Below are positions 2,477 to 55,690 of a DNA stretch of 64,000 nt, piece after piece. The DNA comes from Spirometra erinaceieuropaei (taxonomy: Eukaryota > Platyhelminthes > Cestoda > Diphyllobothriidea > Diphyllobothriidae). Location: assembly GCA_902702965.1 (NCBI GenBank), contig CACRXP010000011.1:443617-507616 (forward strand), written 5' to 3'. How positions within the stretch are numbered: position 1 is the stretch's first letter; every line of letters starts with the position of its first letter. The position numbers and the translations under genes are program-made. The notes under the pieces are model-generated. The model was not told the DNA's origin. It did no database searches and saw nothing but the letters and a program-made list of their open reading frames with translations.

Positions 2477-2589
2477 AGGGCGCTGAAGGCGGATCTGGCG
2501 ACCTTGAAAGAACAAGAAGAGGAGGGACTAGTAATAATGAACGGAGTGATTATTCGACGACAAAGACCCCTCCTGTGGAGGACGCCTGC

Positions 2590-3345
2590 CATACCGACGA
2601 AGGCCACACGGCCGGGCAACTAATTCGACGCAACAACCTACATAAAACTAAGTTCTTCTACGGAAATGTAAAAAGCCTCTTGAACAAACTCGACGAACTT
2701 AAAATAATTGTGGCCGAACTATGTCCTGATGTTATTGCATTAACTGAAACGTGGCTCACCCCAGATCTCACAGACCACAAATACAGTTAGATGGTTATCA
2801 AGCGCTAAGACGAGACCGAACCAAAAAGCGAGGTGGCGGAGTTGCCACATATATCAGCAATGCGGTCGAATATAACCCTGTTGAAGAATGTGTAAATGAG
2901 CATGATCTGGAGATGCTGAAGTGTCATTTGCTGGTCCCCAAAGCCGAAAAAGTTACTATCACCATTGTGTATAGTCCTCCAAATCAACCTGCGACAAAGA
3001 TCAAGCGTTAATCCCTCGACTACGAGAGAACAGTCGAAAGCAAAACATTATTATTGTAGGAGATTTCAATGCTCCGCTGATTAACTGGGACCTTATGACA
3101 GTTAAGGGCTACGGTCAAGGATTCGACCAAATGCTATTAGACATGGCATTTGATTAATTTCTGTTTCAACATGTACGAACTGTGACTCGCATGCGTGAAG
3201 GTCAGAGAGCTAGTTGCCTAGACCTTGTGTTTACCAAGAACGAGGAAAGCGTTGATGAAATAAATGTAGGTTCGCCCCTAGGTTCTTGTGATCACATGAC
3301 ATTAATGTGGGAGTCGACAATCGTAGCTGTTCCCGAATGAAGATC
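2590..3345 (+). pseudogene. CR1-like LINE ORF2, EEP endonuclease domain (broken)
   Basis: The nicking endonuclease of a non-LTR retrotransposon. In order I see GNVKSLLNKLDELK and CPDVIALTETWLTP (N-terminal EEP strands with the catalytic Glu), RGGGVATYIS, VTITIVYSPPN, IIIVGDFNAPLINWD (GDFN motif), CLDLVFTK and GSCDHMTLMWE (C-terminal SDH-type motif, here CDH). The frame changes near 2,780 and again near 3,010, and a stop (TAA) interrupts the MAFD region near 3,157. No intact enzyme is encoded. Confidence 0.82.
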
Positions 3346-3559
3346 AAAGTCGTTAAGAAATGTCTAGCGGGGAAACTTTGAGGCAATAAAGTCAGAGATC
3401 AGACACACACTATGGACGGAAGCATTACGAGATATCAACGAATGCTGCACAACCTTCCAATCAACTATGAGAGACCTGATTGAACGATACTGTCCGCTCA
3501 AGAAACATCCAACCGGAAATAAAACGAAATGGCTGACAACATCGGTTAAGAAGGGAATC

Positions 3560-5430: not shown

Positions 5431-5720
5431 TTATTTAAACGACTATAAATACGCTACTAACAGGATTTCAACAAATCCTATTTTGTGCGTCAAACCTAGC
5501 CCATATGGATATTTTCACAGTCCGAATGCGGTGAACAAAGTTTTTCGCAATTATTTCGCGAGTACCATACCCCTTTCGCCTTTATGTTACTTTATTAGAT
5601 TTATGAATTCTCCTTACTAAAACTGCAAGCAAAATTTTTCCGCAAATTAACTGTTTTTCTTTACATCTGTACCCTCTAAGTGGAGTTTTCAGGGCTTCTG
5701 TCGTTTACTCCAAATATACT

Positions 5721-5830
5721 GACTGAGAATCCGAAACGTCAAACGAATAAATTTCTTGTTCCAGTGATGGCATCGTCGTCTTCTGGCATGCAGTACATGC
5801 TCAGTCCCGCAGCAATGAAAGCCTAGATCA
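5721..5830 (+). mobile_element. Penelope-like tail, 3' half of hammerhead-like motif onward
   Basis: The sequence gagaatccgaaacgtcaaac followed by ataaatttcttgttccag is the same as the tails at 57,040-57,100 (minus) and 59,585-59,650 (plus). The 5' half of the motif is missing, so this copy is truncated just inside the hammerhead-like element. Confidence 0.65.
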
Positions 5831-8800
5831 TAACACTTTTTATTTAAAATGTAGGCGTGATGCTCGACGTATATGTAAGAGGAGGATTTGATTTGTCTGA
5901 CATCTAGAATTCACACTCGAAACCACCACCGGAGTCATGAAAAGATAAATACAGGAATGCACACGTGGGCAGTAACCGGGGGTGGTACATACTAACTAGC
6001 CTATTATAATTACTATAATTATAATTACAGACATATTCTACGCAGATGGCTGAACATACTGTGATGATTGCTTGTTCGCAATGGTCGTGTCGTTACCTGT
6101 GACGATTATACCGACAGCATTTATTCCCGTTATTATAGTATCTCAGGAAACGGTCTTGCCCTACATTCCGCCCTAGTAATCACCAACTCGTCCAGTCAAT
6201 GTCTTAGCACCAAATATAGAGAAGAATTCAAGGTATTTACTGCTTGACCGTGGGTCGGAAAACCACGAAAAAAACTAAGTTACAGCTCTAACAGTTGTCG
6301 CCTCTCTCGAGGTTCCTAGCCCAGTTGAATTTGTAGCTGCGATCGGGTCCAATAGATTGAGTGACAACTTAAGGGTTGGCGTCACTACTCTTCACTGCTG
6401 CTACGGGTTTGGCTATCTGATTTCGCATTGATCTCCCGTCTGAGAGAAATTATACGACAGCACGGGAGTTTCTAATACGTATCCCCCTCTCTGTGAGGTG
6501 ACTTTATAAATTAGCAGAAAATAGTTGTTCGAATTTGGAAAAGTCTATAAGACGCGTTGCCTCACTTTCAGTCAAGGAACGCTTCGATTCAAGCTTGAAC
6601 ATATAAAAAGAAAAATTCACCAAATAAACGCAAATTTAGATATCAACAATGTATGCAACATTTCCCAGGCGAAATTAGTCGCCACGCTTTTTCTTAAACT
6701 TGATTATTAAAGAAACCCAACTGTCACTCCTTAATACTAAAGCTTATTTCTGGTCCTAGCTCTTCCACTGAGACTTTAGTTGAAACTGCCCCAGATGTTT
6801 GACATCGGGCAGCAGTTTGGAATTACGAACCTCAAACTTAGAAAAAGTATTTGCATTATGGGCGCAATTAGAGATATCGTAGCAAGAGTCCTGCCACCAC
6901 TTTTCACAATTGAATGTCACAGCTTTTCAGTGATCCCTGCCATGTGGAGCCTTAAGATTCACTTCGATCGTAAGAAGAAAATGCAAAGTTCGGCTTCATA
7001 TCGATACTGGGTACCTAGTTTCCATTCATGGGGAAGATATTCATAATCACAATATCGATCACATGGGTTGTGGTATAATTCCCTTGGGCCGATCGGCGAG
7101 CTTAACCCGGTCACTTCCACATTCACAGAGATCATGCTAATGCACTTGGGTGATGTTCGCCAGGAAGAATAACACGGCCAACAAAATGCACCAGAGTTAA
7201 TGTCATTGGCAAATCTCACCTAGTATAATTCACCATAAGTACTCTTAGCTTAGGTTTTAACGAGATCTTCAAAGAAGCCGTAGAGATGATTCCTTGTCTC
7301 CTGTAACATTTACTCCAATTTCACTCCATTTCGAACCCTTTATTATTCAATACATTTGAAGTTATCAGGAGTGAATTTTTAAATTATTCCGAAAATGTAA
7401 GCAGCCTTCGTTCGAATGGTGATAGAATCCGAACATGATGACTGTAAACACTACTGACAACAGAGAAAGGCAGTTCTCCACTTTCGCATGCAGGAACTGG
7501 ATGTAATCGAAAAAAACTTCCATGATCAATGCGCACCAGTTTTGACAGTGCCCTAGGTTTTACGGGAGAATCCGCTGACAAACACCGAGAAGCCAGGACC
7601 CGCTGCAAATTTTTTCTGACCCCGTAGTCAGGCAAATATATGCATATCACTAGCACTTTACTTTCGGAATTTCAGTAGTTTGTACATTGACTAATACAGA
7701 CGTTGCCTCGGATTGTTGGTGGCTGACACCATGGCAAAATTACCAGCTCGACATGTGGAGCCAAAGAGCAGCTGCAAATCGGAAGGTGTTTGCAGACTTA
7801 GTAGGAGACTGATTCCTGAAATACCGGTAGGCTTCTAAGGAGAGGGCAACTGAAGTATTACAATACCTGTAAGTCTGACAGACAATAATGCAGACCCCGC
7901 CACATGTAGAAACAAGAGACTCCATCCCTGTTAGATTTGAAAAGAGAATGAATAGCTATTTTCAAAACTCAATCACAGAGCTGTTTGGTATTAAAATTGC
8001 TATCAATTAATCTCATTCTAAATAATAAAATGAGGGACACACCAGAATATGAATAAGTAAGTGAGCCTAACTATTCAAGGCAACAGTTGTGAATTTTCGT
8101 AAAGTCGATATTGATTGTTTTATTAGCCATCTGTGCGGGTGCTGTAACTAAAAACTAAAATATATCTCAAAAGATATTCATGAGTAAGTTTTGGAATAAA
8201 TATGCAAACATGCTCGGTCTTCAACTTGTGTTTAGAGTGAGCAGCGGGTTAGGAAAAAGTGAGGGAGCACTGAAAAACCTGCCTTCCAAGATTGGCTCAG
8301 AATGGCATGAAATGAATGTGGTTTGCTAACTTTGGGAAGGAAAAACTGTCGCCACTGTGGACAAAAATATTTCCGCTGGAAGGGGTAAGTTGTAATAGTT
8401 CAAATTTTTCCTCGTCAGGGGAGTATTCATAAACCGGATGAGGCTATTCGCTTTAGATACGATCATAAGATTTCTCAGCGGGAACAGCAGCCAAGGATGC
8501 GTGACAGGAGGGACCCACCGCGATCGTCCACAGCCTGCTTATGACCAACAGGAACATCAAAGCGTGGGTAGTTGCGATCACAATACTTTTTTGCTGACTG
8601 AACAAACCTAAATGACAGTTCGACCATCGATTTCGATGATGTACACCGTGTGCCCCACAGCTGCAGCAGCGGTGGGAGCAGGGACGGTGACTTACGCAGA
8701 GGTTTATAGTGCCGGTAGACTTGTGCTGCATCTACCTACACTCTCTCCTCCTCCCTCGCCCGAGCCCGATGTCAAGAGAGAGTCAAGAAGACCGGAGACG

Positions 8801-8899
8801 AGGGAGGCCGCAGGTGGATGGCTCGGACGGATCCTTACCTTGGCGTTCCACCACACCCCCTGGTCCACACAACAATAACCAGGATTTCAAACAACACAA
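5831..8899. other. About 3 kb with no recognised gene
   Basis: No open frame over about 90 codons, no recognisable domain, no large inverted repeat and no tRNA fold that I could see. It may be intergenic sequence or decayed repeats too old to read by eye. Confidence 0.4.
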
Positions 8900-9708
8900 C
8901 CGAGATTGAAGGCTGGCACGGCCGAAGCCGCACCTAGGCGTGCCGCCGACGCCTGGTTCGGATCCTACAGAGTGGGAGTGCCATAAAGGCCACATTAAAA
9001 AGGAGCCATTGCAGCCTGACTCTCAGACCCCCACCAGTCGAAGAGGATGTCCAAGTTGTCCCGTCAGTTGGCAACCTTCTAAGCCACGGCTTTTAGCGCA
9101 CCGTGAGAGCTTCAGGCGCGTCAGATTGTTTATAGTGAGGAGAAAATGCGCAGAGTCGTCGACCTCACTCTCCCTTCCCATTCCCACACCCCAGCAGCTG
9201 TCCGAGCCGGTCAACAGACTGGAGTGGGAAATGGGCGCGGTGGCTGGCATGGTCGACTGATCATGACTGCGCGCGCCACGTGCACGACCTGCCCCCCCCC
9301 ATACACACATACACCAGGAGTTCGCACAACGGGGGTTGAACGGCGTGTCTCTCACTTGCGTGAGAGTGGCGTGGTAGTTGCTGTTTCAGCCCGTCCTCAG
9401 CCCACCGGCCCGCCACTCCACACAACACACACACAACGGGACGAACTGCGTGGACCGAGTGGGGGCGTCAATCAGCAACCTTCCTATCCACGACGCGTGA
9501 CGTGTCGGGATAGTCTCAGACTCAAGTCACCCGTGCAGCCGAAGCCGCATGGGGACCGAGTCGAGATGCACACTTCCCACTTGATTGGGAGGTGACAGTT
9601 GGGTGCTTGCGGTGTGTGAGTGCTGATGTGTGGTGGTGGTGGTGGTGGTGGTGGTGGAGGCAGGGAGGGATGGTGTTATGGTGTGGTGTAGCCGGTGGTT
9701 GTCTACCG
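8900..9708 (-). mobile_element. 3' untranslated tail of the RT plus zinc-finger LINE
   Basis: The tail follows the predicted stop of the zinc-finger ORF at about 9,709 on the minus strand. It is GC-rich and contains the phrase with cactctcacgcaagtgagag (reverse complement of 9,350-9,372), which reappears with changes on + at about 39,455-39,472. That places 38,849-39,760 as a second copy of the same tail. A GTG/CAC microsatellite lies just inside it. The 3' limit near 8,900 is a guess from base composition. Confidence 0.55.
9630..9658. repeat. (GTG)n microsatellite
   Basis: Nine or more tandem copies of GTG/CCA lie in the tail of the zinc-finger LINE. A shorter (GGA)n run at 10,339-10,361 lies inside the same element and encodes poly-Ser on the minus strand. 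Confidence 0.9.
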
Positions 9709-10703
9709 CAGGTCGTCGTGGATGCGCGTGTGGCCGAGTAGGCCAGTGCGATGCGTGAAAGTGCGAGGGCAGTGTGGGCAGTGGAGGCGAGCTTGGTGGG
9801 TATAAGTTGGTGCTCAAGTACTGGTTCGCCAGTCTCTGTGCGATGAATTCGCAAGTGGCCGACTAGGCCGAGGCGAGTGATGAATGCGCGTGTGCAGTGT
9901 GGGCAGGTGAATTCTGTAGTGTCGGTGTCCGTTGCTATAACGGTGATGGGCGCAAAGGGGGATGAATTGGGGATGGGGTTTGGCGTGGTGGGTAAGTCGG
10001 GAGGGCGGTCAATTCCGCTCTCGTGGGTGCGCATTTGGCCGAATAGGCCCATGCGATGCGTGAAGGTGCGAGGGCAGTGTGGGCAGTGAAGGCGGGTGCG
10101 GTGGGTGTAAGTTGGTGCTCCTGGCACTGGTTCGCCAGTCTCTGTGCGATGGATTCGCCAGTGACCGACCAGGCCGATGTGTGAGGTGAAAGTGCGGTCG
10201 CAGTGAGGGCAGGTGTAGTCCTGGTCCTCACCCCTGGAGTCGGAGGTTGGAGGGATGGTGTCTGTTGTTGAGTCATGGATGTGTGTGCTGCTGGTGTGAG
10301 TGACGGCCACCAGAGCGGCCGTGGTTGGTGCAGTGGGGCAGGAGGAGGAGGAGGAGGAGGACGGAAGTGGTGGTTCAGAAGAATTGTCAGAGTTAGTTGG
10401 CGGCGGAGAGGACGTAGCAGAGACGGGCGGAAGGGCGGCGGTTGGTGCAGTATGGGAGGTGCAGTTGGTCCGAAGATGTCCAATGAGTCCAATTCGTGCC
10501 CGGAATGTCCGTTGACATCGAGGACACGTTGGAAGCGGTTGTTCGTCGGCGTTGCGGACGGAGCGTAGCTGTGATTTGCGTGCTTCGCGTTTCACTTTGA
10601 CAGCGGCGATTCGGTTGACCTCATAGATCGCAGCGCCTGTCTTCACTTTCCTCCTCCAGGTCGGTCGGTCAAGGGCGAGCTCTTTCCAGTTGGTTGGATT
10701 AAT
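9709..10703 (-). pseudogene. C2H2 zinc-finger C-terminus of the LINE polyprotein
   Basis: This part follows directly, in the same frame, after the RT tail: a TAA at 10,704-10,706 stands where related copies appear to have Gln (KHL, stop, INPTNW). Five finger-like units are visible: 1 at about 10,461-10,529 (CPRCQRTFRARIGLIGHLRTNC), 2 at 10,145-10,212, 3 at 10,023-10,086 (second-half His changed to Gln, LFGQMRTH), 4 at 9,843-9,907, and 5 at 9,717-9,783. Unit 5 is in another frame because one base is missing near 9,815, and it ends HDDLR then TAG. The fingers share the pattern CPHCxRxFxxRxGLxGHxRIH and are joined by Ser/Thr/Pro-rich linkers. I infer a nucleic-acid-binding role in target choice or RNA binding. 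No intact protein is made from this copy. Confidence 0.82.
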
Positions 10704-11477
10704 TTATAGATGCTTCAGGGAGGACTTCAGAGTATCCTGGTATCGATGAATTTGGCCTCCTTGGCGGCGAGAGCCCGTCGCGACGTCTCCGTAGAAGAGT
10801 CGTTTGGGTAGTCGCTCGTCGTCCATGCGCACCAGGTGGCCGCTCCAGCGCAGTTGCATTTGTCTCAGCATGGTGTTGATACTGATGACTCTCGTCCGTT
10901 TCAGCACATCAGTGTCGGGAATTCGATCCCGCCAGTTCAGCCTCAGGATGCGACGGAGACAACTGAGGTGAAAGTGGTTCAGTCGACGTGCCTGCTTTGT
11001 GTTTACTGTCCAAGTTTCCGCTCCGTACAGCAGCGTCGGCAGGATGACGGCCTTGTACATCTTCAGCTTCGTGCTCAGTTGAAGACCGTGACGATTCCAA
11101 ACTGTGCTTTGGAGGCGGCCGAAGGCTTGACTGGCTTTCGAGATCCTGCGAGCGACTTCGTCATCGATCTTGGTGTTAAGGGAGAGAGTGCTGCCCAGGT
11201 ACGGGAAGTTCTCCACCACTTGCAGTTGGGTTCCGTTCACACTGATTTGCGGCGCGTTGGGAGGAGTGGCTGTGTTGGGTGACGGTTGATGCATGACCAC
11301 CGTCTTCTGCGTGTTGATCACCAGACCGAGGTTCTCGCAGGCGGCAGAGAAGAGGTCCATGCTCCGTTGCATCTCCTCTTCCACGTTGGTGTTCAGGGCG
11401 CAGTCGTCGGCGAAGAGAAGTTCGTGAACGGTGGTTGTGGAGACGCGCGATTGGGATAAAATCGGCGGATTTGGCAA
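10704..11477 (-). pseudogene. RTE-like LINE reverse transcriptase, 5'-truncated
   Basis: The 257-residue open frame starts inside the RT palm. It carries [14 protein letters not shown] (motif C, with both Asp present), then [48 protein letters not shown], and the C-terminal block [23 protein letters not shown] (in two parts). These are the RT tail landmarks of RTE-like flatworm elements. Motifs A and B and the endonuclease are absent, so the copy is 5'-truncated at about 11,480, as is usual for target-primed LINE insertion. The TAA ending this frame is probably a nonsense mutation within one RT plus zinc-finger polyprotein. Confidence 0.88.
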
Positions 11478-27441: not shown

Positions 27442-27448
27442 CATATAA
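27442..27448 (+). promoter_or_regulatory. TATA-like box of the micro-exon gene
   Basis: The heptamer catataa lies 38-44 bases before the start codon at 27,486, which would imply a 5' UTR of about 10-15 bases. Spliced-leader addition, known in flatworms, cannot be excluded. Confidence 0.4.
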
Positions 27449-27485
27449 GCAACCACATCAGGTGAAACCCGTTGGCGTCTTCACT

Positions 27486-30361
27486 ATGAAGTTCTTCATC
27501 GGTCTTTGCTTGTTGCTGGTAACGGTGTATGCATTGCCCACAGGTATGATATACCAAGTCTACTTTACATTTCAGTGATAACTACTCGTACACATTACAT
27601 GAAAAACCGTAGCCAATATCCAGAAAAAATATTTAGATATAACCAAAGCAAATCGTTTTGTATTCTGGGAATTATGGCTTCTGTCTACCTAACGCAAGAT
27701 TGTTCTGAAAGCTTAACCAGATTTACGCAGTTGTTTTCAATAGACATAACTCTTCTGATCATTATGACTATTCGTCTAAGTTGCCATGCGGTTTTATGCT
27801 TCCTGTTGTCTCACGTAAAATCTTTCTCGATTATTTGTGCAAAGATCTCTTATATACTTTTGTAGAGAATGGTCACGGATCCGCAAATGGTAGGCAAAAT
27901 AATGTTTTCCTTGAACATTTTTCAGGCACTTAGTAAAAGTAGCATTGCGCTCTTCGTCATAAGCCGGTAGTTACGCACTTGAGAACTGTAGAAACAATGC
28001 AGGAAGCACTTTCTATGCGGCATTATAACAAAACAAAAACTGAAAATAAAAACGGACAGCATTTAATTAACACCGCAATATATCATTGCAAAGTCCCAAG
28101 GACTGTGATAGCCAGAGGCAAAAGGATCGTTTTCTCAGCAGTTGGAATTAACTCATCACTTTATGCGTGGTTTGAAATGGTTGCCTGTATGCAAATGTTT
28201 CTTGAAAAAAAACCTGACCTAACGTAACGCCTTGTAATTTGGGTCATATGCGACGAGTGCTTAAAATGATTAGCGGAATAAAAAAAACTCCCGTGCCAAA
28301 TCAAAACTTGTGCATGCCATGTCACGGTTATGCAAAACAGGTGCCCTCACTGATTCAAAAGACAGAATATTATATGCAATTGATGATCATAGAAAAGAAA
28401 TGCCAAACTTTGTTTTGTAACAAGCCAGTAATTATTGTCGCAAATTAGCGACAGATTGAGAACACTTGCGTTAAATAGGCTAGTAATCATAAGAGGGTCT
28501 TAAGAGTTTCACACAGCATTTTTTCCAAATTAGTTCTCAACCTTCAATACATGTGCCGAAACTGACATTTTTCCTTGAAATTTAAATGTAGCCGTCTCCA
28601 CCGCCGCAAAAGGTTCGTTAAACATGTGCATATATGTTAACAAATAGGCATCATTGGCTTATTAAGAATTACTTCTCAACATTGTGAATGGTGCTATCTC
28701 GAGGATGCCTACATTTGGTTATGTGAATTAAAATGGTTCTATAGTGTTTCCGCTGCGAGCGTTCTGCAAACGTAATCATATAACGGAGACGTGGCTACTG
28801 TTTTTCTTCAAATGTTCCTTATGAGCATACTGAAAACCGCATTGCGTGGTTTAAAATGAATTGCTTGTCAAACTACAAGGATGTACACATTTCTAAGGGC
28901 TTGATGAATAGTCAGCTTACCGTAGCCCCTCAACTACATGCCTATTAGAATACCCCGAAAAATAGCCTCTTTATCTAGTCACGCTAAACGTAACTAATCG
29001 TTGTCTATTTCTGTGGATTATTTTTGGCTCTCCCAAAAGGCTAGTAAGATTCTATTATGTCACAAAACACGAAGAAAGTTAATACTGGTTATCGTTCTCA
29101 GTCAGTAAATCCGAACCTCTTCTTGCACTCGTTTCGTTTTCCCTTCTAACGGAGTTGGTTTATTCCTCCCAGATGAACGTCCAACCAGTAAGTTCTCCTT
29201 ATCATAGTGGTTAACTTGCCCAATGCCTATTCGTATGCAACGCATATTAAAATTAAAACGTCATTGATGTTTCGCACTCCGAAGCAGTTATCGCACATAA
29301 TATTTGAGGAAAGCGTCAATCATTAATAGCCAAACTACACAAAATCCCAATTTAAATATTCACGACATTTTAACCTACTCTTTTGGTTATGAACATTTTA
29401 AACAGGCATATTCCTGAGCATAGAATGCCCGCAACTTGAGGGACATATATGCTACTCAAGATTAGTGTGCACCGGTAGTTTTTGATAATCTGTTTCAATG
29501 ATTGTCTTGAAATTATGGTGACCATTTTTGACCTAGGGGAAAAATTTACGGACATTTTGAAGGGTTTGTCACAACACTAAACTAACATGGCCCATCTAAC
29601 ATGTTTGCTTTGCCGATATTTCGATCATATTACGGTTCTGTACACTATCGTACTTTGCTAACCACAGATATCTGGGACAACTTGCGTAAGTGTCCACCAA
29701 ATTTTTTTGCCCCTTACCTCGCTTAAATCCGTTTAAATACATATTTTTATAATCCGTGAAGAGTTGGGGGCTTTTAAATGATGAGAGTTTGTTCTCCATC
29801 GATTTCACAGTGACCGTCTTGCAATCGTTGTTATGCTCCCGGAATAGAGTCTGGTTGGGAATACAGATTTGTACTTGCTCACTTTATAGCGTACAATGCG
29901 AATTGTTCAACTTTATTTTTGTCTTCATTTTGTAGTACAGCACTTTAAGAAAGTCTTCAAAGGTAAAGTGTCCTAACTGTGCCAGTTCATCTTAAAAATG
30001 TAAGCTTAGTCAATTATATGACTGACTGCCATTTTTATGCATTTAAATACATTAGCAAAATCGAAGAAATTTGGTAAGTCAAACGAACGGAAGATAGAGT
30101 GGAGGGGAACTGGAAGCTTTTAATATTTGTTCGGAGAGTACGGATCCAGGCAATACATGACGAACAAATTTCGTTACCCACCACATCGTCTTTTTTAACA
30201 TCATGCAGCTTGTGAAGTTTTGAAACGTCAGTTTGAAAAAATTATATACAGGATCTGCATTCTTTATTTCGGGAAAAAAAACTTACTTCGAAATTAATTA
30301 TCTAGGTGTGACACGCGCCACATACATTATTTCAGGCTAGCAAGCGAAAACGAATGCTGTC
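27486..30361 (+). CDS. Micro-exon gene, exons 1-9 (signal peptide and N-terminal part)
   Basis: Exon 1 27,486-27,543: MKFFIGLCLLLVTVYALPT, a classic signal peptide with likely cleavage after VYA. Exon 2 27,866-27,889: ENGHGSAN. Exon 3 28,592-28,612: AVSTAAK (weak donor gttcgt). Exon 4 29,173-29,187: DERPT. Exon 5 29,668-29,685: NIWDNL. Exon 6 29,936-29,962: LQHFKKVFK. Exon 7 30,056-30,073: AKSKKF. Exon 8 30,209-30,226: ACEVLK (donor gtcagt). Exon 9 30,341-30,361: PSENECC (acceptor ggctag, donor gtaatc; tentative, and an 18-nt version ending at 30,358 is possible). Each first residue is completed across the junction. Most acceptors have T-rich tracts. The peptides are mostly polar and basic, and hold the only cysteines of the mature chain. 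The upstream in-frame Met at 27,288 was rejected because it would bury the signal peptide. Confidence 0.8.
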
Positions 30362-33300
30362 GTAATCGAAAATTCAGTCCAGATGTACATTAGTTTGCCT
30401 TTTAAGTAAAGATATATAGTGGAACGTCAAATGTTATGACACTAAAAGTCGTAGGAATTGTTTTAGATGACCAATCGGTTTGGATTATATATAAGCACTT
30501 TATTATTTAAGGTCCGTAATACAACGCACAAAAGCCCAGTCAGTCTAGTTTGCTACCCGCTTTCCAGAACCTTACCAATGAGCAGAATGCATCTTGCCAC
30601 GCTTCCAAACAATCGACTAGGCTTATATGCGCACTGTACGCTATAGCATAGATTATTTACCGAAAATTTCGTCCGTGTCATTTAAAAACTTTGCTGTCCG
30701 TGTTCGAAATGTCATCAGTCCGAGTTCAATATATGCTGAAGCAAAGTTTGGACAGCTGCTTGTATAGTACCACACTCAGAAAGACAATTCAAACTCGCCC
30801 ACAGACATAGTAAAATCAATGCAACAGTTTGAACAAGGCGAAGGCGACAAAGCATGCAGAATTCAATGACGTCATAAATTTCGAGACCTCTCATTCAGCT
30901 GCACACGGTCATTGCATAGTTATATTACAAGGCAAAACTGTTCAATCAACGATCGACCTAGAGAGCTTAAACGTGATAGGTAAACTGAAACGTGGGTCTA
31001 GTATGCAGGTGCATATAGTGAGGGGGGAGGGGGAGAGAAGTCATCCAAGTATGAGAGAACTGGTGCGGCGTGATTTGGAGTGCAACGTGCGGGGAGCATT
31101 CAGTCATGCCGGGGAGAGGGGGAGTGGGTGGGGGCGAAAGGAGAGGGCATACATGGGAACAGGGTTTCGTCCATAATCGATAATTACCATGGCAGTGTCA
31201 GGTTTATCACATGGTCCAGCTGAATGAGAGGTCTCGAAATTTATGACGTCATTAAATTCTGCATGCTTTGTCGCCTTCGCCTTGTTCAAATTTATCCCGG
31301 GAAAACACTGCTTCAATGCAACAGTTGTTAGAAGAGTTAAACAGATCTGGAAACGAATTAGATGTGGCTAAAAATAAAACGCGTATGCCTGGAAGTAATC
31401 GTGATCGATAGCAATAATAAAGTGTGGTTGTGACAACATTTTTTCTAAGACGCTGTTTCGAGAACATAAAAGCGAATGAATAAATAAGTGTATTAGGCGA
31501 AAACTGATCACTCAAAAGGCTGTATTTTACATTTGTCAAACAAACAGTTATGTTGCTGAACCATAAGTTTCAAACCAGGGAGTTCTGATGATGGAAATGT
31601 AAAACAACACCAGTCGCCAGCATTATGGACGTCAGATAATCAGATAATACGATCTTCTAAATCATACTTAGGCAAGCTTACACCAAATTTATTACCTAAA
31701 TATGAGGTTTCGCATCTCCTGCTGTCCTGAAGGGTTGTAGATTCATCAATATGACGACTCTTGTCTGCATCTTGACAAAAATGTGTTTTGCATTGCGGGT
31801 GTCTATTTAAAAAATGCCAATTCAATTCTTTAGTCTCATTCATAATTCCATGTTTGGTTTTAATGCGCTTGTTTAATCTAAATGATCTGTTGATTCCGTA
31901 CGATTGGGCTGGTCGCATCTGCCGACCTGAAAGGTCTGCTTGTTAAGGTCATCGTTAACGCCAAGACACTGCACAACAAAGCAGCATTTCGCTTTATGAA
32001 ACTTATATCCACGTTGCCTCGCGGGCCGAAGGATTCCACAAAACAAACAAATCGAAACCTTCGAGACTTGTTTGAATTTCGTCAGAAGTTTAAATCTCCC
32101 ACGAGTTTAGATCCTTAAATGTTCAGCGCAGGACCGAAAAAGTCAGGCTTATTTTGATACAACTGTGCATTACTAACATGCCAACAATAGAATTCCAATT
32201 TCTTAAGACAGTACACATAAAACAGGACAAAAACGCGAAAGGCTATCAAGTAACTTTGTTATATGGTCCGCTTTGTAGCAGGCGCCTTGATCGAATTAAC
32301 GAGTGGTAAGTACCTCCCTAAAATCGCAGATAAATTTTGTGTATCAGATGACTTTCACATAACTGTCATGTTTATATTAAATTTATCTGCAAAAATGGCG
32401 ACACATTCGGATGCTTTCTGTTTATATTAAAGGCGAAACCTGGGGTACGTAAAAGCTTTTATTATGCGTGATTTGATCGAAAATTTACAAGCACTTAGTA
32501 GATATTATCGTAATTATAGAGAGCACAGAATGTGTAGAATATACATCCATCTTCTTTGTTGACCTGCGGACTTGGTTGTTAAAGTTTCAATTGACTAACT
32601 TATTAACAGGTCAGATAATATTTCAAAATTTGCCTTATAACTCTTTTCATATTTTGGTTGTTTAAATTTTAGACGAAGTGGTTCCCAGTCTTTTCGAAGG
32701 TAAACATTCGGCAGGTTGAACCTCCTCATACGCATACAATTGGATGAAGTAATTTGACATGATTGTAGCGCGAATGTAATTTTAATTTAGGAAACGCCAG
32801 TCAAATAGGTAAGCCCTCCACTTGTGAATCAAGCACCTCAAAGGATTTTGAAACGGAAATCTTACTACTCAGTTTCCCAGGAAGCGTTTTAAATAACGGG
32901 CTATTTTAACGAACTTTTACCTGAAAATGATCCGCAATTTCATGAATATTTATTTGAATTTTCTAACAATTTCAGCAAAGGAGTTTCTTGCTCTTTTGCA
33001 AGGTAAGTTTGTTGCCAAAGAAGCGCCTGTTAAACGGGGGTTTGCCAACCACGATTCTGTTTCCTGCATATAATGAAAGCAAATTCGTTTTTGCATTTCT
33101 AGGAAAACAGTCTAACCACAGTAAGATGTTCAGCTTTTTACAGATTTGGACTTTATTTTGGACTTCACTTATTTGTCTACTAGTTAAGGAGTAACAAAAT
33201 TCACTTTGGGTTCTTGAGAATTGGTAATTTATACGCCTACACTACCGGATCTCTACTTGGGCATTCATATTCTACTTTTTTGTGGTGTAGTCTGTGCGCA

Positions 33301-36300
33301 TGTTATTTACTGATTTTCTAATAAAGATATAAGTAATTTTATAAAACCACTTGTCGCAAGATGCTCCCATTATATCAAAACATTGAAATGTTATCGCTCT
33401 GTAGCCAGCATGAAAGAATTCTTCAAAGGTAATGTCGTTGTCACAGGGGATTTACTTTAAAAGGGTGTGCCTTAAAATTCATCCAAACTTTGATTATTTT
33501 AATTGAAATATTCAGATCAGATTGACGAAATGCGTGAGTTGCCATTTCACTTAAATACAGCGGCGTATGGTGAAATCATATCTGATTTTATCTGCTTAAT
33601 TTTTATACAGTTGCCGAGCTTCTCATATTCTTTGGAGGTAAGTGTATTTTGGTACTAATTACTGCTACTGACCTTGTCTGTTCATCGCAAATAGAAACTC
33701 ACATTTCACCATTTTTGCTTAAATTCTAGCAAAGGGGGATGATTTGTGTAAGCAATACTAATGGACTACAGTGGTTCTGATAAATGAACCAAATTCGAAT
33801 CATCTGTCCTAATGTTGCCAGTTTTTATGAATTTTAAAATCGTTTTTTTCATCTTCAGTAACCGTTTCGACCAATCTTGTAAACGGTATGGATGCGGCAA
33901 TATCTTCCGTAAACTACTACATTTCCTTTTGTTATGGCCTGTAAAATTGTCTTCCGTATCTTGTAGACACTACCCACAAATTACGTAAGTCCTTCGATTT
34001 CGCGTGCAAAAGCTGTGTTCCCAATGGCTTGTGCATGTAGTCAGACGATCTAGCATTTTTCCATGTTTATGTTCGATGTGTTCATGCAAACGACGTGGCG
34101 GTTAATGAGTTAATCGTTTTTCAGTGACGGTATTCGCCAGCAACCTATCAAGTGCGTGACATTATTGCACCTCTGAAATTTTGCAATTTCCTCGTTTACG
34201 GTGTATGACCAAACTGAAAAACATTCTGATCGCTTGTGATGTGCTTTAGAGCCGGAAGTTGAAGCCATATCCGGTAGGCTATGAATTTCCTTGACAATTG
34301 TTACCGGCGTCGTATACATCTGCCGATGACTTGTTAAATATCAAATTATCATACTACATTTATCCGCCAGCCGCTGTTAGTGGCATCGGTATGTTGAAAC
34401 CAGCATTTACAATCCTCATATTTCCTATAATCATTTAATAAGCAGGTAGTTCTCTGTTTTTTCAAAATTTATCCGGAAAGCTTCTATGAATCCAGATAAA
34501 AATGTCAGTTTGACAAGGATTCCTACGTCCATAAGCACTTTATTTTAACACGTCAAAATCTATAAGAATACAATTTCCGCGACGAAAACTAGAAATTCCC
34601 TAAAACTAATGTTGTAGTTTTGATGGGGACTAAGAGGAATATAGCAAACAAAGTATCGACACAATCGGTAGAATAAGAAGCAAAATTTCCTGAAAATGTG
34701 TGTTTCATTTTGTTGCGTTAACATTATCATTAATACGATTTTCCTTAGGTGGAACGATTGCGAAGATAGTAATAAGTGAGCTATAGCAGCATTTCCATAT
34801 GTCAATGAATCGCATCACCCAGTTAGAGTAAAATAGTTACACATCAACTATTTTCACGACCTACCTTAATTACCTTCCAGAAACAGAGGACTGGCGTAAG
34901 CTTGTACACAGATTATTCCCAATTTTAATGAAACAATACGCAATCAGCCCCATGAATTGGTTTATTATATAATTTTTGTTATCGTCTTTGTGCATGAACG
35001 TTTGCTAAAAATTAACGCGCCCTATCTTTCCTCTTGCAGTTAAAAACCTCCTTAACTACCTAAGAAGTCAGTGCAAATTATTAAATGCCTCATTTATGCC
35101 ATAGTCTCAACACGTTAGCAAATGTGCTTAACGTACTTGTTTTAAATGCAGAAGAGATGGCCCAATTAGGTATGTTTAATGAAAGAATGTGATGTTCTTT
35201 GCTGTGAGCTTTGCGTTTCGCTGTAGTTTGGATGTCTTTTTTAATCGCAATCTCAGAAAATACATCTTTTTCTATAGTGAAAGTCATTCTTAAACGCTGG
35301 CTCGGTTAGTTGTTAACATCCATTTGTTACTGATAACTAACATATGTGTCGAGCTGTTATCAGAAACATATTGCTATTAGTCGAGTCGGTTTACTCAATG
35401 TATGCTTTACATGAGTTTCATCAAACATTCTCAGATCACGAGGGCATAATATGTGAGTTGTTTCATTGGAAAAGTAGATTAAAGCTCCCATAGCGATCTT
35501 ATTTAAGTGAGAATCGTGCATTGTCTAAAATAAGATATGTAATAAAATAAGTTTTTCTTGCAAAAAAGTCGTTTTGTTCTTCTTAACCCACTGGACGCGT
35601 GCTTTATATTTGCACGTCGTCTATAGTCTTTGTCATATGACATGCATGAATTCAAATTTTAGCTTTTTTGTCTTCGACTGCAATCGGCATTTTATGCCTG
35701 ACTTCTACTAGCCAAAATGAACGCAATTTACTTTTGGTCCACATGGACTTTGCATAAACGTATTCGTTAGTTAAACAGTGACATAAGCAAAGCTTTTGGC
35801 TATTAAACGATTTTTATATCTTTTAATAGACCAAATCATTGAGAAGGTCCTTTCAAGTACGTTGTGCTTGTTTTTAGTTATGAGCGATTACAGCAAGCAG
35901 TTCCGATACCAGTCGTAATATTTTTTGGGTGCTGATGGTTTCTCAACATAGTAGAGTTTCCTAAGCAGGCACATGTAGAGCCCAGAATGCGGTATTTCAC
36001 CTGAATATTTTTAACAATTAGAAAAGCAAATTCACATGTCTGATTTGTTTTCATTGTTTTCGCAAAGTACACGAATTCCAACGTTCAGCCTTCTACAACA
36101 GAGTGAAACCTAACAAACCCACCTGTTCTGAATGAGTGCCCACAGAAAATAACCGATTCATATAGTCGCTAATGACCGGGGCAGTTTATTCAGTCATCCT
36201 GGACACATCTCCTTCTTAGGATTTCGACATAGTTAACCTCTACAGCAATCGCATTTGCGTAAACCATTAATTGTCCACTTTTAGTGATCCAACCAAAGGA

Positions 36301-37121
36301 TATGTAGTAAGTTTTTGCAGACCACTCCCGCGAGAATGGGGTCTTCTAAAATTTATATCTAGTTGCTATATTTGCGAATAATTCGAAGGACCATCCGAGA
36401 AGTGAAGAAAACTTTCAATCCACGCCATCTGCCTTGGCTTGGTCAGAAGTGATCATCAGCTAATAATGTGCACTTGTTAAGAAGAAAACGCCGTTAATTA
36501 AGAGGAAGCCCAGTATCAATGTGAGTGAATTTGTACTGGTAGTAGCAAACACACAGAGTCCTATTCAGAGCGGAGGCGGGTCGGGCGACGGAGTGGGCTT
36601 TTTGTCACGCATAAAAATACTACTGTCCAACCTCACATAAATGCTTGGGAAAAAACTCGGCCTTGCTGTGGCACTGCAGAGTACGGGAGGTAGTTAGCAA
36701 GAAAAGACACAAATGCAATCTTAAAACACTCTACTTCACTGTACCCTCGGTGGCATGGATGGCTTGGCCGTACTTTCTGATTGAGAATGTGTTGTATCTA
36801 CACGGTTGTTATATACCAGAAAACGTATCCGGGGAAAAGTTACAATTCTTACCATGAAAACACGCAGGACCACTCATGTGAGCCCTGATTGTCATAAGCA
36901 ACAGTCGTCAGGGATGGATAGGCGGGTTTGACGCGAATTGAAAAAAGCACGTCAGGGCGCGCATTCTCGGGCCCACTCACGTAAGACACACATGCATGTG
37001 TGCGACACTATTCCTGATCAATCCCCTTAGAAAGAAACATGACTTATTCAAAGTGTCAGCTAGGCATATAAGAATGGTCAGCGTTGACTTTCGCTTTTAC
37101 GTTTTAGAACTGCCAGCTTGA
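27486..37121 (+). CDS. Micro-exon gene encoding a secreted protein of about 218 residues
   Basis: I assembled 29 coding exons by eye. Exon 1 (27,486-27,543) encodes a signal peptide and ends after the first base of a codon. All 27 internal exons are 15, 18, 21, 24 or 27 nt, begin after AG and end before GT, and keep intron phase 1 with no stop. The last exon (37,108-37,121) encodes KLPA and TGA. Coding total is 657 nt. Micro-exon genes (MEGs) with phase-1 symmetric exons behind a signal-peptide exon are established in schistosomes, where many are secreted by host-contact tissues and vary by exon skipping; any micro-exon here could be skipped without losing frame. The product is cysteine-poor with four N-glycosylation sequons: NAS, NHT, NDT and NLS. 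Function is unknown. Exons 3 and 9 are the least certain. I recognise no named orthologue. Confidence 0.88.
30816..31326. repeat. Small foldback element in a micro-exon gene intron, with G-rich centre
   Basis: Terminal arms 30,828-30,901 and 31,217-31,290 are 74-bp inverted repeats with one mismatch (C versus T). A 14-bp direct repeat tcaatgcaacagtt stands at 30,816-30,829 and 31,313-31,326; it could be a target duplication, although it overlaps the left arm by two bases and lies 22 bases beyond the right arm. The internal 31,015-31,140 is very G-rich on +, with four G-runs at 31,111-31,134. It encodes no transposase. It lies between exons 9 and 10. Confidence 0.82.
32279..34388 (+). CDS. Micro-exon gene, exons 10-23 (paired 27/18-nt core)
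   Basis: Exon 10 32,279-32,305 PGALIELTS; 11 32,673-32,699 DEVVPSLFE; 12 32,791-32,808 GNASQI; 13 32,976-33,002 AKEFLALLQ; 14 33,103-33,120 GKQSNH; 15 33,405-33,428 TSMKEFFK; 16 33,516-33,533 DQIDEM; 17 33,611-33,637 LAELLIFFG; 18 33,730-33,747 AKGDDL; 19 33,859-33,885 LTVSTNLVN; 20 33,967-33,984 DTTHKL; 21 34,125-34,151 LTVFASNLS; 22 34,250-34,273 KPEVEAIS; 23 34,371-34,388 AAVSGI. Long exons give hydrophobic-rich nonamers and short exons give mostly polar hexamers. Sequons: NAS (exon 12), NHT (junction 14/15), NDT (junction 19/20), NLS (exon 21). Donors are mostly gtaag-like; exon 21 uses gtgcgt. This dense block gives the strongest evidence for the gene. Confidence 0.9.
34881..37121 (+). 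CDS. Micro-exon gene, exons 24-29 (C-terminal part)
   Basis: Exon 24 34,881-34,895 ETEDW (15 nt); 25 35,040-35,066 LKNLLNYLR (27 nt, donor gtcagt); 26 35,152-35,169 KEMAQL (18 nt); 27 35,435-35,452 DHEGII (18 nt); 28 35,830-35,856 YQIIEKVLS (27 nt, donor gtacgt); 29 37,108-37,121 KLPA then TGA. Phase 1 continues to the end: the base left by exon 28 plus the first two of exon 29 make the Lys codon. The last intron is the longest in this part (about 1.25 kb), so a missed micro-exon there is possible. Confidence 0.82.
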
Positions 37122-37161
37122 ATCCATGCTGAAGGATTTGTGTTAACATTATCTTATTTCA

Positions 37162-37171
37162 AATAAATAAA
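37162..37171 (+). terminator. Polyadenylation signal of the micro-exon gene
   Basis: Overlapping AATAAA hexamers at 37,162 and 37,166 lie 41-50 bases after the TGA of exon 29. The cleavage site would be expected near 37,180-37,195. Confidence 0.7.
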
Positions 37172-37195
37172 GACCTCTGGATATAGTATTGCCTC

Positions 37196-37903
37196 CGTTT
37201 TCACCACTTTTCAGCGTTTATAATGGCGGCGGGTTATGAGGCGTATTTAAAAAGGCTAGTAAACGAGTGGATGATTACATGAAGGGGAACAAATGAGATT
37301 AAATTAGTCTTTTAAAGCACTGTCACCACAGCGTCGGTTCTAAGGAAGCACTGACAGGACAGGCTCTGAGGCCCACTTAAGCATTACAGTCTGCAGATTT
37401 TTCTTCCTGTTCACATCGGCCACATCGTAAACAGTAATAGATTATCATAGTTTTTATAGTTTAAGGCAGGGGAAATGAGAATAGCCATCTTTGGTTAATT
37501 TATGTTCTCTAATCAGACGTTTCAGCTGAAACAACGAAGGAAGCCCAGTTTGGAATACTCTCCGGCGAGACCGAGCTATCGGCGACACGATCCTGATTTA
37601 CTGTGTAACTTTTTACCGGCTAAATGCCTAATTTCCGGTCTTCCTCGCCTGGAAGTATGACCCGTCTGACTGATGTTAATTTGTTGCCAAGATTGCAATT
37701 TTGGTCCACCTACCCTCATACGTACCTATGTTTGCCATGTCCTATTTGGTGGTTGGCTTTGGGCCTGGAACGGAATTGCAGGGCAGAGTGAATAAAATAA
37801 TGCAAAATGGTAGGCGGCCTTCATATGTAACTCTGTCCGCTGCAGTATCTAAGCTACTGATATCAGCATGGTAGATCATTTTAAAGGTATATATACATAC
37901 GTA
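37196..37903. other. No recognisable feature
   Basis: Spacer between the micro-exon gene and the next foldback element; nothing supportable seen. Confidence 0.4.
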
Positions 37904-47179: not shown

Positions 47180-48960
47180 GAAATATCTGGTGTTGTGTGT
47201 GTGTCCCTACACACGTTAATTCCTCATCTCATTCCCGTCCCTCTCTACTCTTTTCCTCACACTTCATCCCCTCCCCTCCCTCTCATTTTCTCCTTCTTTT
47301 TCCACTTCAAAGTGTCCAATGGAGAAGGAGACGTTAAACCACTTAAGCGGTCCAGGCTAACTCGTGTGGCTCTCCCAATAATCAAACCTCGACCCACAGT
47401 GGAGCTCTGCAGCCATCTGAGGATGCCTAAGCAGCCTAACTGAAGGACAGCTTTGCTTACCCCTCGAGGCGGGCGTGGCCAGAAAAGGCAAATGCTGGGA
47501 TTAAGTCATCTGCACGCAGACTACGGCTCGAAGATGAAGGACTCACGGTCGAAACCATCAAGTAAACAACAGCCCACGTCCCTATGTCCTCCCACCCCGA
47601 CTCACAGGATGCTTTGGTGGATACACTCACTTTCTCAGCCTGAAATGCTCGTTCCCTTTTAGAAAAGCTGAGGAGCAGTCGACGGAGACGGAGACGCTCA
47701 AAACGTGGATATCGCTGCTCTCAGGGAGACCAGCTTCTCCGAACAGGACCAACTGGACTAGGTGCCGGCTACACCTGGTTCTGGAGCGTCTGCCCAGAGT
47801 TAGAGAGACGCGACACAGGCCACTCGTATGACATTGTAGGACGACTGTCCTGTCTATCGCAGTTCGTAAACAACAGGCTCAGGAGCCTGCGCCTGCCTCT
47901 ATTTCCCATCACTCAAGGCGGTCTACGGATACTTAACCAACGCAACCACGACATATATCAGTTCCGACTAAACAACGCTACTGACGGGAAATCAGAGATT
48001 CTGGAGCGTTTGGCCGAGCACTACAGAAACCTCCTAAACCATCCCTCCACAGTCGCTGTCGCCGCCATCGACCGACTCCCTCAAATGGAAACGAATAATG
48101 ACCTGGATATGTCTCCTCCTCTCCCAAAAAACAATCACTGCGTACACCAACTGTCCAGCGAAGAAGCATCGGAATTTGACGTGATTCCGGCCGAAGTTTA
48201 CAAGAACGGCGCTTTCAACTCGTGAGTCAACTCACAATGTTGTTTCAGGCGATGTGGCGCCGAGAACCAAGTCTTCGGTGTTTCAAGGATGCGAAAGTCT
48301 TCCATCTCAATAAGCGGAAGGGGGACCAGCATTTGTGTAATAACCAGAGAAGATTCTCGGTCTTCAAAACCAACGGGAATATCTCCGCTCGCATCCTCCT
48401 CAACCGGCTCCCTGAAGGTCGGCGTGGATCTCGACGCCACCGCGGAACCACCGACATGATCTTTACCGCCTGCCAGTCGCAAGAGAATTGTCAGGAAATG
48501 CGAACACATTTATTCACTAAATTTTGCCAACGTGACGAAATCCTTCGATACGATGGATCACAATGTACCTTGGAAAATCATGCAGAAATTCGGCTGTCCT
48601 GACCGATTCACGCATACATCGTGTCACCTCGCGATGGAGAGATGGCGAGTGACACTGATCATGGGACCGTTTCGGAGGCATTTGCAGTTACCAGTGGAGT
48701 GAAGCAGGGCTGCGTACTCGCTCCCACCATCTTCAGCTTCATGTTTGCTGCCACGCTGGTGGACGCCTATTGGGATCCGCACCGTCTACATGACCGACAG
48801 TCATCTTCGCAACAGCTGGCGCATGCAGTCCTTTACGCGTTTCTCTGCGGCTATTATTCATGATTAGCCCTTCGCACATGACTGCTTGATCAACAACGGA
48901 ACGCGTGACTCTTCGGCTCCGTCTGCGCCAACCTCAGACTGACCGTTAACACGGACTAAC
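47180..48960 (+). pseudogene. RTE-like zinc-finger LINE, internally deleted 5' half
   Basis: On +: a 5' leader with a C/T-rich tract at 47,220-47,300; an endonuclease start near 47,690 (DIAALRETSFSEQDQL); then a jump past most of the endonuclease to EILERLAEHYRNLLNHPSTV and AAIDRLPQMETNNDLDM (48,000-48,100), followed by QLSSEEASEFDVIPAEVYKN, RRHRGTTDMIFTACQSQENC and AFAVTSGVKQGCVLAPTIFS (RT motif B, about 48,690). Frames change repeatedly. It ends near 48,960 at CANLRLTVNTD, where a Penelope tail begins, so motif C and the zinc fingers are absent. It is the same family as 9,709-11,477. Confidence 0.75.
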
Positions 48961-53759: not shown

Positions 53760-55690
53760 AATACTTGCTTACTTACTACTTTTACTTGATACGGCTGCGA
53801 TCATGCCTGATCTAGCCGGCCTCGACGATGTCCCGAACTGTACCTCTCCACGCGTGACGATCCGCGGCAGCAGATCTAGACAGCTCAACCCATTCCCTCG
53901 GCCAACGACGGAGACCGAATACCGAAAGTCCAAGAACCACCTCCATGTCTTGACGAACTGTGTCCAGCCAGGTTTTGAACTGACCCCCTCTTCGACGCCT
54001 CCAATGGAACAGCGGTGACCGATCGAGGGCAGTAACACTGAGCTCCTGAGGTGGACAACGAAGAACATGCCCGAACCACCTCAGTCGTCTTTCTTGGATG
54101 GCCTGAGTTATCCTTGAGATGTTGTCGCATCGAGCGGGGACTGTTTCATTTGAGACGAAGTCGGTGAATTTCACTCGAAGGATGGTCCTCAAGCAGTGGT
54201 GGTCAAATACCTCCAGTTTTCGCTCGTCCTCCACGCGCAAATCCCAGCATTCACAACCGTAGAGAAGGACAGACCGGACAGATGCACGGTACACGCGAAT
54301 CTGTGGCGATGGAGAGGTCACGTCGGTTCCGTAGGCATTTCCGAAGGCCTGAAAAAACCCAGCGGGCAGCATCGATTCGGGAGACAATGTCGTCCTTACT
54401 CTGTCCATTAGGCAGCAGCCTCGCCCCAAGGTATTTAAAACTGTCTACTTCTTCAAGTTGACAGTCATCAATCCCGAGGGATGCCTTCTCCTGGTCAGGG
54501 ATGCAGCTTGAGAACACTTTGGTCTTCCCAGCGTTTATGGACAAACCGACTGATTTAGCGACCTCGTTCACGCGTGACACCATAGACTGTAGATCACCAA
54601 AACTTGAAGCAAGTAAGGCGATATCATCGGCATAGTCGAGATCAGTCAGTCGATGTCCGGGTGCAAATTCACCGCCGTCACTCTCGCGTAGGGCCCTCCC
54701 GAGGATCCGGTCAATAGCGTAGTTGAACAGTATTGGTGACAGGATACAACCCTGTCGGACGCCAGACCGAATAGCGAACGGTTGGGAAAAATTGTTGCGG
54801 ACCAGGACTCTCGCGGTAGTGGAGCGATAGTAGGCCTTGATCATGGAGATGATTTTTGCCAGTACACCATCTAGCGCCATTATCCGCCACAGGGACTCAC
54901 GGTGAACGGAATCGAACGCGGCGGCAAAATCAATGAAGCAGACGGCCGTCGGTTGTTGGTAGCTATGGCGAAATTCGAGAATGCGCCTCAATGTGAATAT
55001 CTGGTCTGCGCATCCAGCACGAAATCCAACTTGGTTGGACCCCGTCCTTGAGTCACGCACAGCCTGGAATCGCCTGAGTAGGACAATAGCGAATATCTTC
55101 GCAGCAACGTCGATGAGACTTATGCCGCAGTAGTTTTCGCATCTCGTCTTATCTCCCTTCTTGAGGATAGGTACAAGGATACCTAATCCCCAGTCATCAG
55201 GAACAACCTCGTCTCTCCACGCTCGTTCAATCACCTCATGGAGCCAGGGCGCCAGTGTCGACACAAGACTTGAAAATTTCAGCGGGTATACCGTCCTCTC
55301 CGGGTGCCTTATTATTGCACAACTTTCGTATGGCATCGGCGACTTCTTCCTCGGAGGAGGGATCGCATGGCACTGCATAGATAGGAAAGGGAAGAAACTC
55401 CGCTGAGGAGGAGAGCAAGGATGATGTAAGTTGGGTATCGAAGTTGAGATGGTGCTCAAAGTGCTCACGCCATCGCTCGACTTTGGCCGAGTTGTTAGCA
55501 ATAAAGCCGCCGTTCACATCGCGAACAGAGTCACTCAGTGTAGAGGGCTTACAGCTAACTTGGCGAATCTAACGGTAGAGCTTTCGAGTGTCACCCACTT
55601 TCGAGGCCTGTTCCATGGAGGTCGCTATTTCAGCCCAACAGCCGCTCGGATTGTTTGTTCGAGGTTGTCTCCTCTAGCGCTTTGGCTTAA
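53760..55690 (-). pseudogene. RTE-like LINE reverse transcriptase with two frameshifts
   Basis: On minus: 55,236-55,517 DPSSEEEVADAIRKLCNNKA then PGEDGIPAEIFK; after a shift near 55,250, 54,251-55,501 carries APWLHEVIERAWRDEVVPDD, CENYCGISLIDVAAKIFAIV, AVCFIDFAAAFDSVHRESLW (motif A), IRSGVRQGCILSPILFNYAI (motif B) and LTDLDYADDIALLASSFGDL (motif C, YADD intact) and DSFKYLGARLLPNGQ. After a second shift near 54,400, 53,812-54,429 encodes the tail (LLYGCECWDLRVEDERKLEV, RRLRWFGHVLRCPPQELS). It ends in a short repeat-like agtaagtaag tail near 53,765, as RTE elements often do. The 5' end (endonuclease) is missing; weak coding continues to about 55,690. It has no zinc fingers, unlike the 9,709-11,477 family. 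Confidence 0.85.

Follow-up and report, generated by a model that had tools for sequence, protein, structure and literature searches.

The window analysed here is a 64,000-nucleotide stretch of Spirometra erinaceieuropaei DNA (contig CACRXP010000011.1 of assembly GCA_902702965.1, positions 443,617 to 507,616 of the forward strand). On its plus strand, 27486-36307 is almost certainly a real gene, and its architecture leaves little doubt that it is a micro-exon gene (MEG). It represents a new example of this class, not recognised as a MEG in the public records returned. The best overall explanation, with a probability of roughly 0.6, is that it encodes a secreted, cysteine-free, helical MEG product of Spirometra that acts at the host interface.

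Of the 31 exons in the corrected gene, the first is signal-peptide-like and 58 nt long, the next 29 are micro-exons of 12-27 nt, and the last has 23 coding nt. The micro-exons measure 27 nt (12 exons), 18 nt (10), 24 nt (three), 15 nt (two), 21 nt and 12 nt (one each); all 29 are flanked by AG and GT, have lengths divisible by three, lie in phase 1 and keep the frame open. Together they supply 639 of the 720 coding nucleotides (88.8%). Conceptually translated, this 31-exon, 720-nt model gives AAHC03_09992, a protein of Spirometra sp. Aus1, without a single difference. A first-pass annotation, made from the letters of the window, had described a signal-peptide exon heading a run of AG/GT-flanked, symmetric, phase-1, open exons, and this is indeed what is seen from 27486-27543 onwards. 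Its exon count, minimum exon size and gene end differ from those of this model, however: 27 internal micro-exons of 15-27 nt were claimed where the matching model has 29, one of them (32433-32444) being 12 nt long, and the gene was closed by a TGA before AATAAA (37108-37121), while the public model ends with TAG at 36285-36307.

The chain was evaluated by scanning for candidate exons between AG and GT, with splice-site matrices (and, for the analyses below, a hydrophobicity scale) set by hand. Candidates were defined as 9-36 nt long with both splice scores of at least 4 within 27544-37109. On the plus strand, their lengths modulo 3 were distributed as 36/8/10, as against 6/8/9 on the minus strand and a mean of 11.6/10.8/10.6 in 100 dinucleotide shuffles. 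Thus, 36 of the 54 plus-strand candidates have a length divisible by three, 33 of them being open in phase 1; the corresponding minus-strand figures are six of 23 and three, and the shuffles average 8.0 phase-1 open symmetric candidates with a maximum of 17. The best chain has 30 exons and a score of 203, while 200 dinucleotide-preserving shuffles gave a mean of 33.8 (SD 15.0), a maximum of 77.5 and chains of at most 16 exons, which bears out the earlier claim that such a chain is very unlikely by chance. Built from splice signals only, the chain recovers 25 of the 29 micro-exons of the model, misses four and includes five extra. In 12 overlapping segments scanned on both strands and ending at 62179, plus-strand segments not overlapping the gene scored at most 59.7 and minus-strand segments at most 78.1; among the tabulated segments, the bias towards multiples of three was found at the gene alone. 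The minus strand of 1-9566 carries 60 dense splice-like candidates (23/17/20 modulo 3) with a 16-exon chain scoring 78 and no clear multiple-of-three bias; it is probably repeat sequence.

Protein database searches were run with growing alignments at E values of up to 1, 10 and 10, the last of them scoring the 8000 candidates that shared most words. They returned three, four and six proteins, respectively, none from outside Spirometra/Sparganum, although shared 5-residue words were required and distant kin may escape. In the first round, the conceptual product matched AAHC03_09992, SprV_0401651600 (Sparganum proliferum) and P0003, which is an unnamed S. erinaceieuropaei product; these constitute copy A. 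Copy B is represented by AAHC03_09990 (Spirometra sp. Aus1), SprV_0401652100 (S. proliferum) and P0006, the latter assigned by eye from its N-terminus. SprV_0401651600 shares 160 of 234 aligned residues (68%) with AAHC03_09992, AAHC03_09990 shares 106 of 231 (46%) with it, and SprV_0401652100 is identical to AAHC03_09990 at 117 of 159 positions. The alignments of both the orthologue and the paralogue to AAHC03_09992 run exon by exon with few gaps, and AAHC03_09992, SprV_0401651600 and AAHC03_09990 each hold nearly all exon blocks. The gene number of AAHC03_09990 lies two away from that of AAHC03_09992, and the contigs of both are listed with equal length; a second copy within the window was sought and rejected, AAHC03_09990 yielding scattered 5-residue matches alone (12 rows).

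Outside the N-terminal block, which includes a repeated TVTNSTK, and the last exon, the sole gap in SprV_0401651600 corresponds exactly to the 12-nt exon 10 (GETW). The absence of exon 10 from the S. proliferum copy-A model implies a change of a whole micro-exon between species, by gain or loss or by skipping. For the Spiro_Aus1 gene set, BRAKER3 was supplied with RNA reads from spargana, both short and Nanopore direct, as well as with S. erinaceieuropaei and Sparganum proliferum protein models (PMC12249497). Without read support, the presence in AAHC03_09992 of a pair of weak-donor exons and of a 12-nt exon missing from SprV_0401651600 would be hard to explain. As the first-pass annotation had it, no named orthologue emerged: the relatives are all labelled hypothetical protein or unnamed protein product, and neither AAHC03_09992, identical to the gene product, nor its relatives AAHC03_09990, SprV_0401651600 and SprV_0401652100 (each a "hypothetical protein") are named as MEGs in these records. 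Its further suggestion that the gene might be undescribed holds for the MEG label in the records returned, but not for the model itself, which already stands complete in the Aus1 gene set as AAHC03_09992. A literature search joining "micro-exon gene" or "microexon" with Spirometra found no paper in the library used, neither term occurred in the 40 of 512 papers listed by a broader search, and micro-exon terms were absent from the main texts of three Spirometra/Sparganum genome papers in a term search.

The product is probably secreted and mainly helical. Its N-terminus, as read from the sequence, is hydrophobic with a VYA site, so that exon 1 putatively encodes a signal peptide. If cleaved after VYA, the predicted mature form has 223 aa, a mass of 25.0 kDa and a pI of 6.3, lacks cysteine and bears four N-glycosylation sequons. 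The highest 18-residue helix moment is 0.685 (residues 47-64). No Pfam or NCBIfam family was matched above its curated cut-off (the best was DNAPKcs_CC3, with 17.6 bits against 28.9), nor was any Pfam family by the conceptual product, AAHC03_09992, SprV_0401651600, AAHC03_09990 or SprV_0401652100. Among solved structures, no convincing relative was found (best E 0.4), and Rfam gave no match at the gathering score.

The exons are unusually ordered. Exons 5 to 30 are alternately long (24-27 nt) and short (12-18 nt), mostly 27/18 nt, i.e., 9+6 residues, with one exception (exons 21-22). Introns within long-to-short pairs measure 81-130 nt (n=12) and those between short and long exons 77-2205 nt (n=12; Mann-Whitney p = 0.0014); the table for Spiro_Aus1 gives mean introns of 2.4-2.9 kb across its columns (PMC12249497). 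Hydrophobic positions keep a fixed register both in the twelve 9-residue modules, most strongly at positions 4 and 8 (0 of 20000 within-module permutations), and in the ten 6-residue modules (6 of 20000). The same register is present in copy B (0 of 20000 for 9-mers and 2 of 20000 for 6-mers), whose exon borders were taken from alignment rather than from DNA. By BLOSUM, none of 5000 within-module shuffles reached the mean of the 9-mer register, the mean itself being slightly negative (-0.42), as the modules are dissimilar overall. Hydrophobicity recurs most strongly every 3.75 residues in copy A, with a peak height reached by 12 of 500 shuffles; S. proliferum copy A has the same top period (9 of 500), and in copy B it is 3.7 residues (0 of 500). 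The value of 3.75 equals 15/4, or the 15 residues of a 9+6 pair divided by four turns; the strict repeat is interrupted wherever a module has 4, 5 or 8 residues. Pairing of exons in helix register is a statistical observation.

It could be speculated that micro-exon lengths are set by helix geometry, with splicing acting as a helix-face switch and exon pairs as the unit of both splicing and evolution, an unlikely reading. A 27+18-nt pair encodes 15 residues, about four helical turns, so that its addition, loss or skipping would leave the hydrophobic stripe roughly in register, while skipping a lone 27- or 18-nt exon would rotate the stripe by 144-240 degrees. The shift computed for a pair is 60 degrees at 100 degrees per residue and 0 at 96. 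Contrary to this idea, the exon pairs show little kinship at the DNA level (the highest score among the 66 pairings of 12 cassettes is 32, which is also the highest in 1320 shuffled comparisons), some 12-, 15- and 24-nt exons are off the pattern, and the single whole-exon difference seen concerns a lone 12-nt exon.

As to function, the product would, though with less assurance than its secretion, be released at the host-parasite interface, where its amphipathic helices would bind host membranes or proteins, as has been described for several schistosome MEGs, and where exon gain, loss or skipping would vary the protein surface. By analogy, the product probably works like amphipathic MEGs; a role as a binder of host membranes or proteins at the interface is plausible at somewhat below even odds, and regulated splice variation is slightly more doubtful still. 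Skipping any single micro-exon leaves the frame open (29 of 29), and three of 465 possible exon junctions create a stop. Several points weigh against this picture. Tapeworms are gutless and lack an oesophageal gland, which prevents a direct transfer of the part that schistosome MEGs play in oesophageal lysis. AAHC03_09992, SprV_0401651600 and AAHC03_09990, each with nearly all blocks present, give no direct sign of regulated skipping. The AlphaFold2 model, for which three sequences were aligned, contains nothing but helix and coil, with longer helices spanning several exons, at a confidence (mean pLDDT 39.2, pTM 0.30) too low for a fold and indicative of helix content at most. The S. mansoni MEG superfamily is characterised by a post-signal motif, FL-phi-phi-F-X6-W-p-(K/H/R), or by red-clade motifs (PMC10526429), and none of four proteins (AAHC03_09992, SprV_0401651600, AAHC03_09990 and SprV_0401652100) matches any of four patterns tried, which cover some of the motifs in that source. 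Neither a named MEG nor a schistosome protein turned up as a homologue in the protein database searches, and long and short exons differ weakly in mean hydrophobicity (659 of 20000 permutations).

Another function can be envisaged, and it is a real though minority prospect: the product may be a constitutively spliced secreted helical carrier, e.g., of lipids, with micro-exons that are relics of exon duplication and play no part in variation. Tapeworms do have small helical lipid-binding proteins (antigen B / HLBP), and a cysteine-free product with an amphipathic period of 3.75 residues would suit such a carrier. So would the better conservation of the C-terminal part, where AAHC03_09992 and SprV_0401651600 agree at 90 of 112 residues (exons 16-30) as against 54 of 101 (exons 2-15), and the presence of all 29 micro-exons in the Aus1 model, nearly all with an S. 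proliferum counterpart. The lack of any Pfam match above cut-off, and hence of any to a lipid-binding family, argues in the opposite direction, as does the S. proliferum model, which differs by a whole micro-exon and by N-terminal blocks, just as exon gain, loss or skipping would give.

The two remaining alternatives to a secreted MEG product concern the gene itself. P0003 (269 aa) maps to 32263-32304, 34121-34150, 34252-34272, 34370-34390, 34748-34774, 47665-48222 and 48349-48456; the ends of these stretches include a few intron bases that read alike, and residues 24 and 47 alone are unmatched, both where exons join. The match marks the window as S. erinaceieuropaei or as a Spirometra of identical sequence there. 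In the P0003 model, exons 9 and 21-24 are continued by DNA lying 13 kb downstream. Were this model correct, exons 9 and 21-24 would belong to a different gene reaching 48456, for which one may cite that all of P0003 except two single residues matches the window and that SprV_0401652100 likewise links the exon-9 block to the exon-21 block. However, the start of P0003 falls in what is intron sequence of the other model just upstream of exon 9, it drops 11 open micro-exons and enters sequence absent from AAHC03_09992, SprV_0401651600 and AAHC03_09990, and Spirometra sp. Aus1 has the whole chain, S. proliferum nearly the whole. We therefore rejected the fusion model on its mapping to the window: it is very probably wrong, its correctness being highly improbable, and the mis-modelling is probably due to such exons being hard to call. 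SprV_0401652100 lacks the blocks of exons 10-20, its exon-9 block running into the exon-21 block, so that the same 11 blocks are omitted as in P0003; the jump may stem from an annotation artefact common to the two models or reflect a genuine skip of 11 exons. Even less credible is a chance chain or a decayed pseudogene. Chains do arise elsewhere in mechanical scans, such as the 16-exon one in 1-9566 (minus strand), but the comparison with shuffles speaks against chance, the whole frame is open with a product identical to an annotated protein, and hydrophobic/polar class is the same in AAHC03_09992 and AAHC03_09990 at 93 of 105 9-mer and 50 of 60 6-mer positions.

The order of the exons on the plus strand is as follows, the micro-exons being placed by both splice scan and public model unless stated otherwise. 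A possible TATA box (TATAAG, 27444-27449), found by pattern search and with a putative function, begins 42 nt upstream of the ATG. Exon 1 (27486-27543, 58 nt) encodes the start codon and the signal-peptide-like MKFFIGLCLLLVTVYALPT. It is followed by exons 2 (27866-27889, 24 nt, ENGHGSAN), 3 (28592-28612, 21 nt, AVSTAAK), 4 (29173-29187, 15 nt, DERPT), 5 (29537-29563, 27 nt, REKFTDILK) and 6 (29668-29685, 18 nt, DIWDNL); exons 3 and 5 have the weak donors gttcgt and gtttgt, respectively, and were both placed through the match to AAHC03_09992. Exons 7 (29936-29962, 27 nt, LQHFKKVFK) and 8 (30056-30073, 18 nt, AKSKKF), the latter with a weak acceptor (score 1.2), precede exon 9 (32279-32305, 27 nt, AGALIELTS), which has a tandem acceptor tagcag, and exon 10 (32433-32444, GETW), for which alignment was used as well. 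Then come exons 11 (32673-32699, 27 nt, DEVVPSLFE), 12 (32791-32808, 18 nt, GNASQI), 13 (32976-33002, 27 nt, AKEFLALLQ), 14 (33103-33120, 18 nt, GKQSNH), 15 (33405-33428, 24 nt, TSMKEFFK), 16 (33516-33533, 18 nt, DQIDEM), 17 (33611-33637, 27 nt, LAELLIFFG), 18 (33730-33747, 18 nt, AKGDDL), 19 (33859-33885, 27 nt, LTVSTNLVN) and 20 (33967-33984, 18 nt, DTTHKL). Exon 21 (34125-34151, 27 nt, LTVFASNLS) is succeeded by exon 22 (34250-34273, 24 nt, KPEVEAIS), placed by the model, and by exons 23 (34371-34388, 18 nt, AAVSGI), 24 (34749-34775, 27 nt, GGTIAKIVI), 25 (34881-34895, 15 nt, KTEDW), 26 (35040-35066, 27 nt, LKNLLNYLR), 27 (35152-35169, 18 nt, KEMAQL), 28 (35278-35304, 27 nt, VKVILKRWL), 29 (35435-35452, 18 nt, DHEGII) and 30 (35830-35856, 27 nt, YQIIEKVLS).

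The coding part of exon 31 (36285-36307, MIQPKDM and the stop TAG) was placed through AAHC03_09992, and this end is supported by the paralogue AAHC03_09990, which also has IQP near its C-terminus; SprV_0401651600 diverges from AAHC03_09992 at the last exon. The terminal exon of the first-pass annotation (37108-37121, KLPA and the stop TGA; acceptor score 6.4) is open and well placed as an alternative, its stop being some 40 nt upstream of AATAAA, but none of the related proteins found ends in it. The overlapping AATAAA signals at 37162 and 37166 (37162-37171) are the sole AATAAA/ATTAAA within 36301-37300. Symmetric open splice-flanked candidates of 18-27 nt also occur outside the annotated model, at 30209-30226, 28745-28771 and 36569-36592, and may be cryptic or lost micro-exons, or chance.

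Intron 8 harbours a MITE-like element of 463 bp (30828-31290) with inverted terminal repeats of 77 nt that are 97% complementary. The segment 47665-48456, which serves as the 3′ part of P0003, may be a gene of its own or a fragment of a repeat. Elsewhere in the window, a C2H2 zinc-finger open reading frame (ORF) adjoins a reverse-transcriptase fragment on the minus strand (9522-10646 and 10704-11477), further RVT_1 ORFs lie at 4093-4629 (plus strand) and 54251-55501 (minus strand), and a GIY-YIG match below cut-off is found at 57084-57818 (minus strand).

The gene extends well-supported MEGs to Spirometra, the agent of sparganosis, and shows that a public gene model has fused pieces lying 13 kb apart. 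It is also an unusually regular case, most of its 29 micro-exons forming helix-register pairs, in which to test why MEGs are built in this way.

Among tapeworms, 35 MEGs have been counted in Echinococcus multilocularis and 52 in Hymenolepis microstoma, and a tandemly expanded family has been reported (PMC7653826). The definition used there asks for seven or more exons, at least half of which are shorter than 70 nt and divisible by three, with a run of four or more (PMC7653826). The Spirometra gene, with 31 exons and its 29 micro-exons in a single run, falls within it, so that the earlier identification of a tapeworm MEG stands, here in a diphyllobothriidean tapeworm; no protein from another tapeworm genus was returned by the protein database searches. 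The consensus of the H. microstoma Chr6 family ends with CPKQCP (PMC7653826), which is absent from the Spirometra product in a by-eye comparison. In schistosomes, MEGs are described as having about 80% of the coding region in symmetric short exons of 6-36 bp (PMC5825161), to be compared with 88.8% in exons of 12-27 nt here. Amphipathic helices are found in several schistosome MEGs (PMC5825161), and membrane lysis or binding has been reported for amphipathic MEGs (PMC12998952, PMC10526429). In particular, those of MEG-8.2, whose site of action is the oesophageal gland, lyse host cells (PMC12998952). No homology was found between MEG-8.2 and the Spirometra gene, which resemble each other in micro-exon size and in amphipathic helices, predicted ones in the case of Spirometra; MEG-8.2 has 17 exons, of which 15 are micro-exons of 12-33 bp (PMC12998952), as against 31 and 29. 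No sequence relation was found to the schistosome MEG-26 family (PMC5825161) either, from which the Spirometra gene differs in repeating a long-short exon pair, mostly of 27+18 nt, along most of its length.

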